Assembly (NCBI GenBank): GCA_016190245.1
Contig: JACPQY010000059.1
Coordinates: 1 to 18,150, forward strand
Source: Nitrospirota bacterium
GTDB taxonomy: Bacteria > JACPQY01
Reading direction: 5' to 3'
Length of the DNA stretch: 18,150 nucleotides
The notes under the pieces are model-generated. The model did not search any database. It worked only from the letters and a program-made list of their open reading frames with translations, and was not told where the DNA came from. Position numbers and translations under genes: made by a program. How positions within the stretch are numbered: the stretch's first letter is position 1; each line of letters begins with the position of its first letter. Positions 2,939-16,667 of the stretch are shown here, in pieces.

Positions 2939-3274
2939 GCATCGCGGTTCGTCGCGATTCTCTCCTCCGTTTTGCTCCTGGCGGGCGACGTAAGCCGGGA
3001 CGGCACGAAGGGACGGGATCCCTTCGCGACGGGCGGCGCCTCGATGCGGGCGGAACGGCACGTGCACCGCGTGGCCGCTGCCGTGCTCGATGGTCGCGGT
3101 CGGGCTCCCACTGTAGGGGTTGGTTTCTACTCCGAAAACGATGAGGGGGTCTTCACGCACATGGGCTCACGCACGCACATCCGCTGCGTCGTTGACGAGC
3201 CCCTCTCCTCGGGCCACGCGGATCGCGTCGCCCTTCCGGCCGGAACGCGGATCAAGTTTCCGGACGCTCACTGA
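2939..3274 (+). pseudogene. unassigned ORF without a credible start, probable gene remnant
   Basis: Straight after the ACAD-like stop codon the same frame stays open to a TGA ending at 3274. Third codon positions are GC-rich, as in real genes here. The beginning (FVAILSSVLLLAGDV) reads like a signal peptide. The end has a structured pattern, GVFTHMGSRTHI, then SGHADRVALPAGTRIKFP, resembling the C-terminal half of a small exported protein with several His residues. No ATG or GTG start precedes the hydrophobic stretch; the first usable codon is a TTG at 2972 inside it, with no ribosome binding site. I therefore think this is a truncated or internally deleted gene, or less likely a gene with an unusual start. 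It overlaps the end of the GH57-like gene on the other strand by 23 bp. No family is assigned. Confidence 0.35.
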
Positions 3275-5267
3275 CGAAGCGCAATCGTTTCCAACGTTTC
3301 AGCATGCCACTTAGCGCCACCATGAGCAGAGCGAGGAGGGCCTGGGTTGTTGAGCCGGTGGGGTGGGGGAGGGCGGTGCAGAGACCGCCATCGTCGTCCG
3401 GTGAGGGCCGGAGCTGCACTCTCGGGTGGACGTTGAGGCGGTCGGCCTCGCGGAGCGCTTCCTCGGGCGTGCCCTTGAGGATCCGAAACACCCAGGTGAC
3501 CGGCTCGTGGGGCGCGGTGCGGTCCTCGAAACGGATCCAGGGCAAGTCGGTCCCGATCTGCGCGGCCACGTGGATGGTCTCAGCGTCCTGAATGAGGAAG
3601 AGGTCGTCGCCGAGGCCGATTAGTCCATTCGCAAGGGGGATGGCAGTCGAGCCGAAGCCGAAAGCCGATAGGGGAACATCACGCACGATGTCTTCTTGGA
3701 GGGTGGGCGAGTAGGCGAGGCGATCGGTTGAGCGGGGGAAGTAGATGATCGGGGGGACTGATCCCGCGTGAAACTCCACTCGGATGTCCCAGAGATTCTT
3801 CCGGCCGTCCACGGAGAAGGCGTGGACGACGCCGGGCCGACTCTCGGCGGGGATTTCGACGGGGACCGGGGGATCGGCAGCCTCCAAGTCGGACTCGTCA
3901 AAGTCGTTGACGGCGGTTCGGGCGGAGGTATCCACCGCGACGGGTTGCCCGAGGAGGTCCGAGAGGATGCCGATGGCCCTCTCCGCCGATTCGCCGCCTT
4001 TCGCGTTCCACTCGCGGCTGTAGCGGATTTCTCCGGCCCAGGGGTTCCAGCCGGTTGAATCGCTCACCTCGGCCAGCAGAAGGGCCCGCTTCGCTTCGTC
4101 GAGGGCCGCTAGGGCCTCGGCTTTTCGCGCTTCATTGGCCGTCGCGGGGAGGAGCCCCGCGAGGACGTCGGCGGCGAGCACCTTCTTTCGGAGGCGGTAG
4201 TTCCCGGTGAGGATCGTGTTGTCCGCCTCGTCATCGGCAAACACGCCCGACCCGCCCATCCAACGGAATAGGTTTCCAGTATCGTCGGGTTGCCACGTAC
4301 CGTCCAGAATGGGCGGCAGTGGCGAGGGCGGGATTCCGGCGTTCTCGATCGCCTCGACGCATCGGCTGATCGTCTCGATTCGAAAGCCCTGCGTCTCGAG
4401 GGACGCGATTTCCTGCTCGTGCCGGGCCACGGTCTCCGGCGTGTGGACGAACAGCGTGCCGGCGTATGGATTGAGATCGTTTGTGGCGAGAAGCTCTCCG
4501 TCGTTGAAGAAGGTCCAGACGATTTCGAGGCCCAGGTCCGGCCGGGAGAGGCCCTTTCCGGCGACCACGACGAGCGCGCCGCTTGTTTCGTAGTAGGGCT
4601 CGGGGCGCTGATCGAATGAGGGGTGCTGGTGGCGGAGGAGATTCTTGGGCAGCAGGGCGATACGGTAGCCGCGCGGAAGCATGAAGGCGAGCATCCCCTC
4701 GCCGAATTGTCCCTCCTGTGTGAACACAACGGGCGAAATGGGAAGGCCGGCCCGGTCGAAGGCCCGGTGGTTCAGTTCCTGAGACCACTCCATGTCCGTT
4801 GAGGGATAGGCGAGAAAGAGTTGGTCCGAATAGTGGAAGCTCACGAGCTCGACCTGGCGACGATCCGTGAGCGTATCTAGCTTGGCGAGCACGCGCGGGT
4901 GGCGCTGTTCGATCACCTCGATCATGAGGCCTTGGAGCTCGATGTCGGTCCCCCACGTGGGATGGGCGAGGTAGAGATCGAGAAGGGGCTCGAAACTCTC
5001 GGTCACGATCCGATCCTGCACCTGGGCGTCGTCCAGGTTGAAGACCTCGGAGGAGCCGCCCAGGAAGCCTTGGAGGCCGCCGGCTACGTACTGGATGTTG
5101 AAATGGTAGAGGGAGAGGGCGAACCTCTGGGCCGGGGCGGTTGCAAGGACCGCCAGGAGCAGGAGGGTGCTAGTAATGGAAGGGGCTGGAGGGGAGGCGG
5201 GGCTCGCCGGTGAGAAAGGCGTCCACGTTCCGGGCGCACTCGCGCCCTTCCCAGATGGCCCACACAA
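3252..5267 (-). CDS. secreted GH57-like barrel protein with C-terminal membrane tail
   Basis: The 671-residue frame starts with a Pro/Ser-rich stretch followed by a signal peptide core (TLLLLAVLATAPAQ, about 33-46). A probable (beta/alpha) barrel follows (about 50-350), with motifs such as VELVSFHYSDQLF and VVFTQEGQFGEGM that recall the GH57/GH38 type of polysaccharide hydrolase. Next is a helical part with ILTGNYRLR and LLLAEVSDSTGWNPW, then a beta-rich C-terminal part. The catalytic residues cannot be named with certainty. The C-terminus has PTGSTTQ, a hydrophobic helix (about 640-656) and a basic cluster KRWKRLR (657-663): a tripartite anchor like those of PEP-CTERM or MYXO-CTERM proteins, with Cys630 just upstream. 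The only conventional start before the signal peptide is TTG at 5267, which overlaps gltD by 98 bp; a CTG start nearer 5150 would avoid this. It is the last gene of the lrp-gltB-gltD run. Confidence 0.55.
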   Translation of the reverse strand: MCGPSGKGASAPGTWTPFSPASPASPPAPSITSTLLLLAVLATAPAQRFALSLYHFNIQYVAGGLQGFLGGSSEVFNLDDAQVQDRIVTESFEPLLDLYLAHPTWGTDIELQGLMIEVIEQRHPRVLAKLDTLTDRRQVELVSFHYSDQLFLAYPSTDMEWSQELNHRAFDRAGLPISPVVFTQEGQFGEGMLAFMLPRGYRIALLPKNLLRHQHPSFDQRPEPYYETSGALVVVAGKGLSRPDLGLEIVWTFFNDGELLATNDLNPYAGTLFVHTPETVARHEQEIASLETQGFRIETISRCVEAIENAGIPPSPLPPILDGTWQPDDTGNLFRWMGGSGVFADDEADNTILTGNYRLRKKVLAADVLAGLLPATANEARKAEALAALDEAKRALLLAEVSDSTGWNPWAGEIRYSREWNAKGGESAERAIGILSDLLGQPVAVDTSARTAVNDFDESDLEAADPPVPVEIPAESRPGVVHAFSVDGRKNLWDIRVEFHAGSVPPIIYFPRSTDRLAYSPTLQEDIVRDVPLSAFGFGSTAIPLANGLIGLGDDLFLIQDAETIHVAAQIGTDLPWIRFEDRTAPHEPVTWVFRILKGTPEEALREADRLNVHPRVQLRPSPDDDGGLCTALPHPTGSTTQALLALLMVALSGMLKRWKRLRFVSERPET

Positions 5268-12985: not shown

Positions 12986-14206
12986 CTACTTCGGGGCCGG
13001 GGGGAGAGGGACCGACGGGAGGGCCGAGGAATCGCCCGCGTCTCCCGTGAGGCGGCCGACGCTGCCGGCATACTTCCCCAGATGCGTGGAGGCCTTCTCG
13101 AAGGCCGACTGCGCGCGCTCCAGTTCCTTCCCCACCTCCTCGAATCGCTCCCGGAAATGCCCGAAGTGGGACTGGGCCTTGCGAATCTCCCCGATGGTGT
13201 GCTCCACGCCGCGCGCCATCTCGTAGTAGTCGTACGAGAGCGCCACGCCTTTGAGTGTCACCGCGAGGGTGTTGGGCGAGACGGGGAAGACCTTGAGCTT
13301 GGCGAGCGATTCCCACAGCTCGGAGTTGCGGATGACCTCGAAGTAAAGCGTCTCGCTGGGCAGAAACATGAGGGCCATGTCGGCCGTGCCCGCGTCCGGC
13401 CGGATGTATTTCGCGATACGCTTCGCTTCGATCTTGATCACCTGGGCGAGTTTCTCCTGCGCGGCCTTCACGCGGGCGGGGTCCGACGTGTCGAACAGCG
13501 GGAGCACCTGCTCGCGTGGGAACTTGCTGTCGATGGGAAGCTTGGTGCGGGGGAAGCGCACGAGGGCATCGACCCGCTCGGCTGAGCCCGGCGCGACCGC
13601 CGCCTGAATCTCGTAGGCATCGGCGGGGAGGAAATCGGCCAAGAGGCGGTCCAGCGTGGCCTCGCCAAAGCCGCCGCGCAGATGGGGCATGCGCAGGAGT
13701 TGGCTCAGTTCCTGGACCGAAGCGCCCACGGTGGCCACGTCCTGCAGCCGGGTTTCGGCCGCCTTGAGGTGCTCCTGCACCTTCTCGAAATGCCGGAATC
13801 CCTCGCGGAGGTTTTCATCCAGCTTGGCTTGCACCTGGCGACCGATCCCCTCGAGCCGTTCGTCCACTTTCGATCGGATCGTTTCGAGTTGGGCGGCCTG
13901 CTCGCGGCGGCCGTCGCCGAGTTGCCGATCCACCTTCTCCTGGATCGTCTGGAGCCCCTGCTGGACGCGATCGGAGACGTCCTGTCGGACCTGCCCGATG
14001 GCGCCCACGAGGTTCTGTGTGGAGGTCTGGAGCGTGGTGGCCAGCGTCTGGGCGTGGGCCCGGTCCAGTTCGCGTACGGCCGCCTCGAGACGGGCGAGCG
14101 GCTCCGCGAGGTCCGGCCCTTTTCGCCGGAAGAGGAGCAGGAGCGCGAGGAACGTGGCGAGGACGAAGAGACTGTTGACCGCGAGGAGGAGAACGACCGC
14201 GCTCAT
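12986..14206 (-). CDS. rmuC: RmuC family DNA recombination protein
   Basis: RmuC proteins limit DNA rearrangement at inverted repeats in E. coli and contain a PD-(D/E)XK-like nuclease fold, although their exact activity is unsettled. The 406 residues show an N-terminal membrane helix (about 3-26), a long coiled coil (about 35-170) and the RmuC domain (about 172-370). The domain carries LRGGFGE (176-182), PIDSKFP (224-230), MFLPSE (280-285) and SPNTL (310-314). A second helical stretch follows (345-380), then a Pro-rich tail. I chose the ATG at 14206 because it overlaps the thyX stop as ATGA and is directly followed by the membrane helix. The frame is open for 54 more codons upstream, but that part reads as thyX shadow. 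It is the last gene of ispH-thyX-rmuC. Confidence 0.92.
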   Translation of the reverse strand: MSAVVLLLAVNSLFVLATFLALLLLFRRKGPDLAEPLARLEAAVRELDRAHAQTLATTLQTSTQNLVGAIGQVRQDVSDRVQQGLQTIQEKVDRQLGDGRREQAAQLETIRSKVDERLEGIGRQVQAKLDENLREGFRHFEKVQEHLKAAETRLQDVATVGASVQELSQLLRMPHLRGGFGEATLDRLLADFLPADAYEIQAAVAPGSAERVDALVRFPRTKLPIDSKFPREQVLPLFDTSDPARVKAAQEKLAQVIKIEAKRIAKYIRPDAGTADMALMFLPSETLYFEVIRNSELWESLAKLKVFPVSPNTLAVTLKGVALSYDYYEMARGVEHTIGEIRKAQSHFGHFRERFEEVGKELERAQSAFEKASTHLGKYAGSVGRLTGDAGDSSALPSVPLPPAPK

Positions 14207-15726
14207 CGAACGAAGAAGTCCTCGGGCCGCTCGGGCGCGGGGTGGATGAAACGGGCGACCTCCGGATGCCGGGCGGCCGCGGCCTCGTACATCCGTCGCG
14301 CGATGTCGCGGTACGAGAAATGCCCCGCCGGCCGGCTCCTGAGCTCCACGATGTATTGCAGCTCCCACAGGTTCATCTTGAACAGCGTCCGTCTCCGGAA
14401 GGAGAGGGGCAACAGGTACGGCACGGCGGCGGGAGCGGCTCGGTGGATCTGCTCTGCATGCTCGAGAATCTCCCGGTGGAGCGCGACGTAGCGTTCTTCC
14501 AAACCCGCTGCGCGGATCTCGTCGGGCAGATCGTAGCCGAGGCGGTGGTCGAAGGCCTTGAGGATCTGGATGCAGTTGCGGTGGCGGTGCAGGTCGCGGA
14601 AGGAGCCGTTGTCCATGCAGACGTCCAGGGTGAGATCGTAGCCCGCGGCCAGCGCACGCGGCGGCGCATCGTGGAGACCGCGATCGTGCTCGACCAAAGC
14701 CGCGAGTTCTCGATCCGCGTCGGGGTGCTCGGCCAGGTACTCGAGGATTTGCCGGTAGGAGTGGGGCAACTCCGCATACAGGAGGCCGGCGGCGATCTCG
14801 ATCTCGAGGGAGGGGGCTTTGGAGAGGGTGACGTCACGCCGGGAGTCGGGCGTCGGAAGTCGGGAGTCGAGGGTGGCGGCAATTTCGCGCACGGCGCGGC
14901 GGAGGTTCAGCGCGTAGGAACTGGGCCGGGCGTATTTCACGAGCGTGGGCAGCGGGACGCAATCCTTGTAGGTGTGGAAGTCCACCTCGCGGTTGAGTCC
15001 GTCGGGCAGGGGCGCGGATTTTCTCATCGCCTCGGCGAGCCGCACTTGGATGGGATTGAGCGCCGGGCGTTCCACAAGGGCCTGTTTCATCTCCACGCCG
15101 ATGGAGCGCAACTCGGCCAAGTCCTCTGAGAGCAAGCGGGAGATGTGTCGTTCGAGCGTGCGGCCGCTCGCCACGATCCCCACGCCCGTAAGGGTAGAGG
15201 CCGGCAGCAGGTAGCGCGCCACGTCGAACGCCTTGGCGCGAACGGTGGCGTCGAAACCCTTGTCGTCCAGATCCTTCGGGCGCAGCGGGGCGTACGCGCG
15301 GGCCAGGTGCTCGGTCAACCGGGCGTGGAAGGTGTTGTACTCCTCGAAGAGGCGCCCGCAGAGTGACTCGTAGCGGGACTGGTAGGGGCCTCCGGCGATT
15401 TCCGGCGGGGTGTAGAACGAGGCCCGATTGAAGTCCACGTACCGCGTGGAACGCTCCTGCGCGTCCAAGAGCGGCTCGTCGAGGAGCGCGACAGCCGCCA
15501 CAATCGAGATGTTCTCGACGGCCAGTCCGACGTGGGCGAGATCGGCAATCGAGGCGTGGCCGTACGTGTGATAGAACTGCTCGTAGAAGGACTCGGCGCG
15601 CTCCCGGCTGAGTGCGAGAATCCAGTCCTCGAAGGAGGTTTCCGGTTTGGAGCGGGAGAACCGCGCGAGGGCGAAGCCCTCAACCTCGGGGAGGGCGCCA
15701 ATGACGGCGGTGACCTTGCGCGTCAC
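14203..15726 (-). CDS. thyX: duplicated (two-domain) FAD-dependent thymidylate synthase
   Basis: ThyX makes dTMP from dUMP using methylene-tetrahydrofolate and reduced FAD. Normal ThyX has about 220-250 residues and works as a homotetramer; this protein has 507 and contains two ThyX-like halves. The N-half (about 15-220) has YGHASIADLAHVGLAVENIS (55-74) and a segment aligned with the ThyX motif where RHR is replaced by DEP (83-85) but the motif Ser (Ser93) and RYV (95-97) are kept. The C-half (about 300-507) keeps RHR (381-383) but has Ala391 in place of the Ser. It retains LPLSFRRRTLFKMNLWELQY (439-458) and the dUMP-side LRSRPAGHFSYR (462-473). The halves are therefore complementary and probably build composite active sites. 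The start is GTG at 15726, overlapping the ispH stop as GTGA. I see no thyA in the window, so this may be the cell's only dTMP source. Confidence 0.88.
   Translation of the reverse strand: MTRKVTAVIGALPEVEGFALARFSRSKPETSFEDWILALSRERAESFYEQFYHTYGHASIADLAHVGLAVENISIVAAVALLDEPLLDAQERSTRYVDFNRASFYTPPEIAGGPYQSRYESLCGRLFEEYNTFHARLTEHLARAYAPLRPKDLDDKGFDATVRAKAFDVARYLLPASTLTGVGIVASGRTLERHISRLLSEDLAELRSIGVEMKQALVERPALNPIQVRLAEAMRKSAPLPDGLNREVDFHTYKDCVPLPTLVKYARPSSYALNLRRAVREIAATLDSRLPTPDSRRDVTLSKAPSLEIEIAAGLLYAELPHSYRQILEYLAEHPDADRELAALVEHDRGLHDAPPRALAAGYDLTLDVCMDNGSFRDLHRHRNCIQILKAFDHRLGYDLPDEIRAAGLEERYVALHREILEHAEQIHRAAPAAVPYLLPLSFRRRTLFKMNLWELQYIVELRSRPAGHFSYRDIARRMYEAAAARHPEVARFIHPAPERPEDFFVR
14833..14868 (-). 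repeat. short repeat-derived insert in the thyX linker
   Basis: The word CGGGAGTCG occurs twice (14840-14848 and 14861-14869, + strand) with a 21-bp period and a third imperfect copy between them (GCGTCGGAAG). In thyX it encodes the low-complexity peptide DSRLPTPDSRRD (residues 287-298), at the junction of the two ThyX halves. It looks like a small tandem repeat that inserted or expanded in frame where it does no structural harm. Confidence 0.4.
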
Positions 15727-16667
15727 GTCGCGGCAGCCGCAGCGAGGTGTTTCAGATCAGGGGGCAGGGCGAATTCGATCGTCTCCTCGGCCACCCGGAC
15801 TTCCTTCACCCGGCCCGCACCCGCGGCGCGGAGTTTTCGCAGCACGTTCTGGACGAGTTCCTCCGGTGCGGAGGCGCCCGCCGTGACGCCCACGCTCCGA
15901 ATGCCCTCAAGCCAGTCCGGGCGGATCTCGTCCGCGTCCTGGATCAGTCGCGCCCTGATGCCTCGCGCCTGCGCCACCTCGACGAGACGATTGGCATTCG
16001 AACTCTCGGGCGCGCCCACCACGAGCAGAAGGTCCACTTCTTTGCACATTTCCTTCACGGCGTTCTGCCGGTTCTGGGTGGCATAGCAGATGTCGTCTTT
16101 GCGCGGCTCGCGCAAGTCGGGGAACCTCCCCCGAAGTGTCTCGACGATCCCGCGCGTGTCGTCCATGCTGAGCGTGGTCTGCGTGATGCAGGCCACGCGC
16201 GCGGGATCGGGCACCGCCACGCGGCGGGCCTCTTCCACGCTGCTGATCACCTCGATGTGTCCCGGGGCCTCGCCGAGCGTTCCCTCCACCTCCACGTGAT
16301 CTCGGTGCCCGATGAGGAGGATCCGGTATCCCTCCCGCGCCAGTCGGACGGCCTCGATGTGGACCTTCGTGACGAGCGGACAGGTCGCATCGATGGCTCT
16401 CAGGTTCCGCCGCCGCGCCTCCTCGCGGACCGAGGGCGACACGCCGTGCGCGCTGTAGATCAGGACGCTGTGCTCCGGGATGCCGGCAAGATCTTCCACG
16501 AACCGCGCACCCTTCTCGTAGAGGTCCCGAACGACGTGGCGGTTGTGGACGATCTCGTGGCGCACGTAGACCGGCGGGCCGAATGTCTCGATCGCCAGCT
16601 CCACGATCTCGATCGCGCGGTCCACGCCCGCGCAGAAGCCCCGCGGCGCGGCGAGCCGAACCTCCAT
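15723..16667 (-). CDS. ispH: 4-hydroxy-3-methylbut-2-enyl diphosphate reductase
   Basis: IspH is the last enzyme of the MEP pathway. It reduces HMBPP to isopentenyl and dimethylallyl diphosphate with a [4Fe-4S] cluster. The 314 residues have the family's usual length. The three cluster cysteines are C12 (RGFCAGV), C96 (DATCPLV) and C194 (DDICYATQ). The substrate-binding histidines are H41 (EIVHN), H74 (SAHG) and H124, the catalytic Glu126 sits in HVEVEGT, and the SSN motif is at 222-224. The ATG at 16667 follows a GTAAGGTAG stretch. It is the first gene of a translationally coupled trio with thyX and rmuC, and it shows that the organism uses the MEP route. Confidence 0.96.
   Translation of the reverse strand: MEVRLAAPRGFCAGVDRAIEIVELAIETFGPPVYVRHEIVHNRHVVRDLYEKGARFVEDLAGIPEHSVLIYSAHGVSPSVREEARRRNLRAIDATCPLVTKVHIEAVRLAREGYRILLIGHRDHVEVEGTLGEAPGHIEVISSVEEARRVAVPDPARVACITQTTLSMDDTRGIVETLRGRFPDLREPRKDDICYATQNRQNAVKEMCKEVDLLLVVGAPESSNANRLVEVAQARGIRARLIQDADEIRPDWLEGIRSVGVTAGASAPEELVQNVLRKLRAAGAGRVKEVRVAEETIEFALPPDLKHLAAAAAT

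Follow-up and report, generated by a model that had tools for sequence, protein, structure and literature searches.

The window, an 18,150-nucleotide stretch of contig JACPQY010000059.1 from a Nitrospirota bacterium (GCA_016190245.1), carries a gene for a protein with two Thy1 domains, neither of which has a contiguous RHRx7S motif: the N-half reads DEPx7S and the C-half RHRx7A. The question raised by this locus is whether such a protein can still make dTMP and, if so, how its active site would be built. A sequence-only reading of the DNA had seen a fused ThyX with DEP at residues 83-85, seven residues, Ser93 and the motif spacing to RYV in one half, and with RHR at 381-383 and Ala391 in the other; all of these residues were exact when checked against the DNA. 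The features of the locus are listed in Table 1.

Gene, domains and neighborhood

Pfam Thy1 (PF02511) matches the 507-aa protein in two stretches (E 2.6e-27, 96.3 bits, gathering threshold 24.8). The AF2 monomer, modeled with 59 aligned homologues, has a pLDDT of 92.1 and a pTM of 0.90. In the VIA comparison of this model the N-half (residues 11-270) aligns to the solved ThyX chain 1o27_A with Z 10.6 and the C-half (residues 295-499) to 1kq4_A with Z 10.5; Z values to solved ThyX chains are about 10.5 per half and reach 12.9. Judged from the predicted model, both halves share the ThyX fold. Rows for ferritin and TRPM3 in the same comparison, with Z under 4, were set aside as noise. A phmmer search of the PDB sequences with the single fused protein gave no ThyX match; the family profile did match ThyX, and no fused ThyX was found among the solved chains listed in that search.

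The genes ispH, fused thyX and rmuC lie at 12986-16667 on the minus strand and share four bases at both junctions (GTGA at 15723-15726 and ATGA at 14203-14206); these overlaps point to a translationally coupled operon. This gene order is not kept in the closest relative (G001). Elsewhere in the window, a 671-aa ORF at 3252-5267 on the minus strand has no Pfam match at E 1e-5.

Table 1. Features of the fused thyX gene. Residues are numbered on the 507-aa protein; Mtb, M. tuberculosis ThyX; Tm, T. maritima ThyX.
Feature	Position	Strand	Evidence and conservation
Fused double-Thy1 gene (thyX-type), 507 aa	14203..15726	-	ORF and translation; GTG start at 15726, stop at 14203
N-half Thy1 domain, residues 11-270, B-role and C-role residues	14917..15696	-	VIA alignment to ThyX chains; profile match to canonical ThyX
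C-half Thy1 domain, residues 295-499, A-role residues	14230..14844	-	VIA alignment to ThyX chains; profile match to canonical ThyX
D83-E84-P85 at the place of RHR, N-half	15472..15480	-	DNA check; first two positions vary across 59 homologues
S93-T94-R95-Y96, equivalent to Mtb S105, R107 and Y108 (dUMP contacts and lid)	15439..15450	-	S, R and Y in 59/59; S and R in 118/118 more
S59, counterpart of Mtb S71 (touches the FAD phosphate, from subunit B)	15550..15552	-	59/59 and 118/118
R171, counterpart of Mtb R172 (touches the dUMP phosphate)	15214..15216	-	59/59 and 118/118
R189, counterpart of Mtb R190 (touches the FAD phosphate, from subunit B)	15160..15162	-	58/59
R381-H382-R383, RHR motif kept in the C-half	14578..14586	-	59/59; DNA check
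A391 at the place of the motif Ser, C-half	14554..14556	-	Column variable in homologues
R463, equivalent to Mtb R199 and Tm R174 (dUMP uracil contact)	14338..14340	-	59/59
R357, C-half, S71 position (Ser in canonical ThyX), presumed dead-site residue	14656..14658	-	Arg in 55/59 class I and 15/15 class II C-halves
W454, C-half, R190 position	14365..14367	-	Arg in 53/59 relatives; gone in the window's branch along with R85

Partition of the active-site residues

Canonical ThyX is a homotetramer. In the structures from M. tuberculosis and H. pylori each site takes RHR 95-97 and R199 from subunit A, S71 and R190 from subunit B, and R87, S105, R107 and Y108 from subunit C (PMC6514825); residues are accordingly spoken of here as having A-, B- or C-roles. 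The dUMP phosphate is touched by R172 together with R87 and R107 (PMC9571937), and R172 is counted here as a probable C-role residue.

Dozens of full-length fused homologues were found when 386 genomes were searched. The alignment used comprises 59 full-length fused proteins, that of the window included, with 19-64% identity to the window protein. Equivalences were fixed by profile comparison of the two halves, taken separately, against 13 canonical ThyX sequences, so that the structural equivalence of residues is one of sequence spacing and profile alignment.

The A-role set (R381, H382, R383, R463) is held by the C-half in every member of the alignment, and the B- and C-role sets are held by the N-half, where S59, S93, R95, Y96 and R171 are invariant and R189 nearly so. 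The reciprocal loss noted in the sequence-only reading is thereby placed beyond chance. Further residues invariant in 59/59 are S24, R25, E91, Y130, G183, E205 and P260 in the N-half and Y437 and L462 in the C-half. Conversely, the N-halves carry mostly D, K, E, H or S at the position of M. tuberculosis R95 and F, H, N or S at that of H96, and no conserved Arg at that of R199; the equivalents of S105, R107, Y108 and R172 are gone from the C-halves. A retained R199 displaced by one residue in the N-half, to position 199 after a one-residue insertion in the helix, was considered and rejected, as Arg stands there in 6/59 only.

Some positions are conserved less strictly. The R97-equivalent (position 85) is still Arg in 53/59 N-halves, as is the R190-equivalent (position 454) in the same number of C-halves; at the R87-equivalent, 40/59 N-halves have Arg and the window protein has Ile75. 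With the exception of this last residue all canonical FAD and dUMP contact residues are present in the window chain, divided between its halves; by alignment, then, one C-role residue is missing in the window's branch. The expected pairing of DEP/Ser with RHR/Ala held for Ser93 and RHR, but Pro85 proved to be a trait of the branch. Likewise the C-half has lost the motif Ser, but Ala is not what regularly replaces it, since the column holds P, E, D, L, A and others.

Beyond this alignment, 118 more full-length sequences (79 of named genomes, 39 of viral contigs) show the same partition, which is thus common to all 177 sequences examined. The named genomes were searched with a pattern that included RHR, and for the viral contigs RHR was one of two patterns used; the C-half RHR in these 118 sequences is therefore not an independent test, whereas S93, R95, Y96, R171 and R463 are. 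On this comparison of sequences the pattern of complementary loss is ancient and not a local decay.

Class I of the fused proteins falls into two clean subfamilies, one with Q378 and AQWxIR at residues 468-473 (38/59) and one with D378 and GHxxYR (21/59). The latter includes the window protein and the Chlamydiaceae-like genomes. Since D378 stands in for T. maritima Q75, near dUMP, this form might alter inhibitor or substrate binding, and details of substrate binding may differ.

Thymidylate synthesis in the carrier genomes

The assembly of the organism (3.29 Mb, 84.8% complete) has the fused gene as its only Thy1 locus, and neither ThyA nor a single-domain thyX was found elsewhere in it at this completeness, as the role proposed for the gene requires. 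In the closest relative, which belongs to the same family and is 97% complete, the fused protein is 64% identical and is again the only Thy1 locus. Exactly one Thy1 locus was found in each of the 59 carrier genomes and ThyA in none of them, 50 of these being at least 90% complete. Thymidine kinase occurs in at most 22/59 carriers and is absent in at least 37, among them the organism itself and its closest relative. With no second Thy1 locus, ThyA or thymidine kinase, the fused protein is the only detectable route to dTMP in these two genomes. In the jumbo phage Tunturi_5 (Tunturiibacter phage) the fused gene adjoins that of dCMP deaminase, an enzyme that makes dUMP.

These data bear on the view that the protein is a decaying or moonlighting ThyX relative, a pseudo-enzyme, with dTMP obtained from elsewhere. 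Such a view would account for the absence of a full motif from either half and for a TIGR02170 (ThyX equivalog) score of 33.9 bits, below the cut-off of 87.9 that is applied in genome annotation. It is nevertheless hard to credit, given that the carriers have no other synthase and mostly no kinase, and that decay would not preserve complementary sets of invariant residues across 177 sequences. Judged from these genomes, the fused ThyX is almost certainly the working thymidylate synthase.

Proposed architecture

Duplication, fusion and reciprocal specialization of the halves, as first read from the DNA, are well supported by the 177 sequences, by the status of the protein as sole thymidylate synthase and by the absence of random loss. 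One Thy1 gene would have been duplicated and fused, after which the halves would have lost complementary parts of the active site, with the A set left in the C-half and both other sets in the N-half. It had also been proposed that one chain forms one composite site. A composite site is still the favored reading; its construction from a single chain is probably too simple. In the canonical enzyme the B- and C-roles are filled by different subunits, and in the fused chain both sets lie in the N-half; a live site should therefore draw on two N-halves besides one C-half, and hence on two chains.

The scheme was deduced from the residue roles, there being three ways to place the halves in a D2 tetramer with a C2 axis left. 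Taking A and C from the same half was ruled out, as no complete site is formed. Favored on the residue sets is a pseudo-tetramer of two chains (four domains) in which the C-halves would be the A-D pair and the N-halves the B-C pair. Two of its sites would be complete, each composed of a single C-half and two N-halves; the other two would be dead, having lost RHR on the N-half side and the B and C residues on the C-half side. The chemistry would be that of ThyX, with FAD, NADPH and CH2-H4folate in the conversion of dUMP to dTMP. This arrangement is preferred because it needs S59 and R189 of the N-half, which are invariant or nearly so, and because position 85 of the N-half and positions 357 and 454 of the C-half, which co-vary, share a dead site in it.

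The co-variation was followed in 169 sequences. R85 and R454 are kept together in 136, lost together in 27 and mixed in 6; R85 and R357 are both present in 136, both absent in 25 and mixed in 8; R85 shows no co-variation with R189 of the N-half. The pattern amounts to 2-3 independent losses and is not significant on the tree, independent-pairs tests having too few pairs for significance, and it is taken as supporting and not as decisive.

The same positions bear on the other arrangement with composite sites, in which the C-halves form the A-B pair and the N-halves the C-D pair, and R357 and R454 of the C-half supply the B-role. The frequency of Arg at 357 (55/59) and 454 (53/59) would be explained by it. 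However, S59, invariant in 177/177, and the nearly invariant R189 would be left unconstrained, R85 should not then follow R454 and R357 in place of R189, and the window protein has W454. This arrangement is considered quite improbable, and the A-D pairing of the C-halves is retained.

The window gene is, with good probability, the organism's thymidylate synthase and a member of an ancient fused ThyX family with halves of complementary loss, which would act as a dimer with two live and two dead sites. Its fold, residue partition and status as sole synthase are directly supported. From the sequences we infer the homodimer, the number of sites and the activity of the window protein. The dimer may also be obligate, with the two dead sites of most members forming an arginine-lined pocket (R85 of the N-half, R357 and R454 of the C-half) that binds another nucleotide or phosphate and regulates the live sites; this extension is tentative and rather doubtful. 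The window's branch, with DEP and W454, is among those that have lost dead-site arginines and would have dismantled the pocket. Many of the class I fused ThyX encoded by jumbo phages and large viral contigs are likewise without the dead-site arginines.

Distribution and origin

Among the named carriers are Chloroflexi, Patescibacteria, Woesearchaeota and other DPANN, Myxococcota (Sorangium, Polyangium), Armatimonadota, many Chlamydiae, SAR324 and cyanobacteria, and class I is also present in jumbo phages and large viral contigs. All 22 searched genomes (1.0-1.4 Mb) of the family holding Ca. Clavichlamydia, which we take to be the Chlamydiaceae, carry a class I fused gene. Chlamydiaceae have thyX, and C. 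pecorum is without thyA (PMC3932018). By sequence comparison the division of the active site is a trait of a very widespread family that includes the Chlamydiaceae, and not of this organism.

A divergent class II, represented by 15 aligned sequences, shows the same polarity of loss: its N-half has HSHP in place of RHR with invariant equivalents of S105, R107 and Y108, and RHR and R456 are invariant in its C-half. A conserved CPEGxRFCG-like stretch is present at the C-terminus of class II. In the best tree of halves the N-halves of both classes are joined (96/85), as are the C-halves (98/93), and the C-halves of both classes have Arg at the S71 position; a single ancient duplication behind the two classes is favored by these observations. 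Independent fusions that converged on the same polarity, with Ser/Arg/Tyr in the N-half and RHR in the C-half, are compatible with the profiles, in which each class I and class II half is nearer to canonical ThyX than to the other, and with AU tests that do not reject a clade of the class I halves (p 0.32) or of the class II halves (p 0.30). Against the joined halves and the shared Arg this origin appears somewhat unlikely, and one duplication is preferred.

By appearance, an essential three-subunit active site was divided between fused halves long ago, and the division has been kept in chlamydiae, DPANN archaea, Patescibacteria, Myxococcota, Chloroflexi and jumbo phages. Fused ThyX offers a natural, testable case of complementary subfunctionalization.

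Comparison with known systems

A literature search, with most subscription journals outside its scope, turned up no account of a ThyX that is doubled or has its motif divided. A 2005 paper by Griffin et al. (J Biol Chem) reportedly treats the catalytic mechanism of C. trachomatis ThyX (FDTS); it probably concerns a member of the fused family and may have noted the doubling. What is provisionally new is the role-by-role partition and its conservation. Chlamydial ThyX, taken as that of the Chlamydiaceae, is class I fused like the window protein, which differs in that R85 and R454 of the dead site are missing as well. What has been learned from the symmetric tetramer of mycobacteria, in inhibitors as in models, may not transfer to the chlamydial enzyme.

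The fused chain resembles canonical single-domain ThyX (FDTS; T. maritima TM0449, M. tuberculosis ThyX) in the Thy1 fold of each half, in holding nearly the whole FAD/dUMP residue set once per chain and in being the sole thymidylate synthase of the genome. It differs in having two domains, with complete RHR and R199 only in the C-half and S71, S105, R107, Y108 and R172 only in the N-half; two sites per four domains are predicted, in place of four. Thermus thermophilus Thy1 (6j61), with an extra C-terminal domain, is also longer than usual, but with 270 aa and a single Thy1 domain it is not a duplication. Duplicated and fused enzymes with degenerate second sites (pseudo-dimers) have gone through the same duplication, fusion and complementary loss. 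Compared with these in general, fused ThyX would be distinguished by a site that drew on three subunits of a tetramer.
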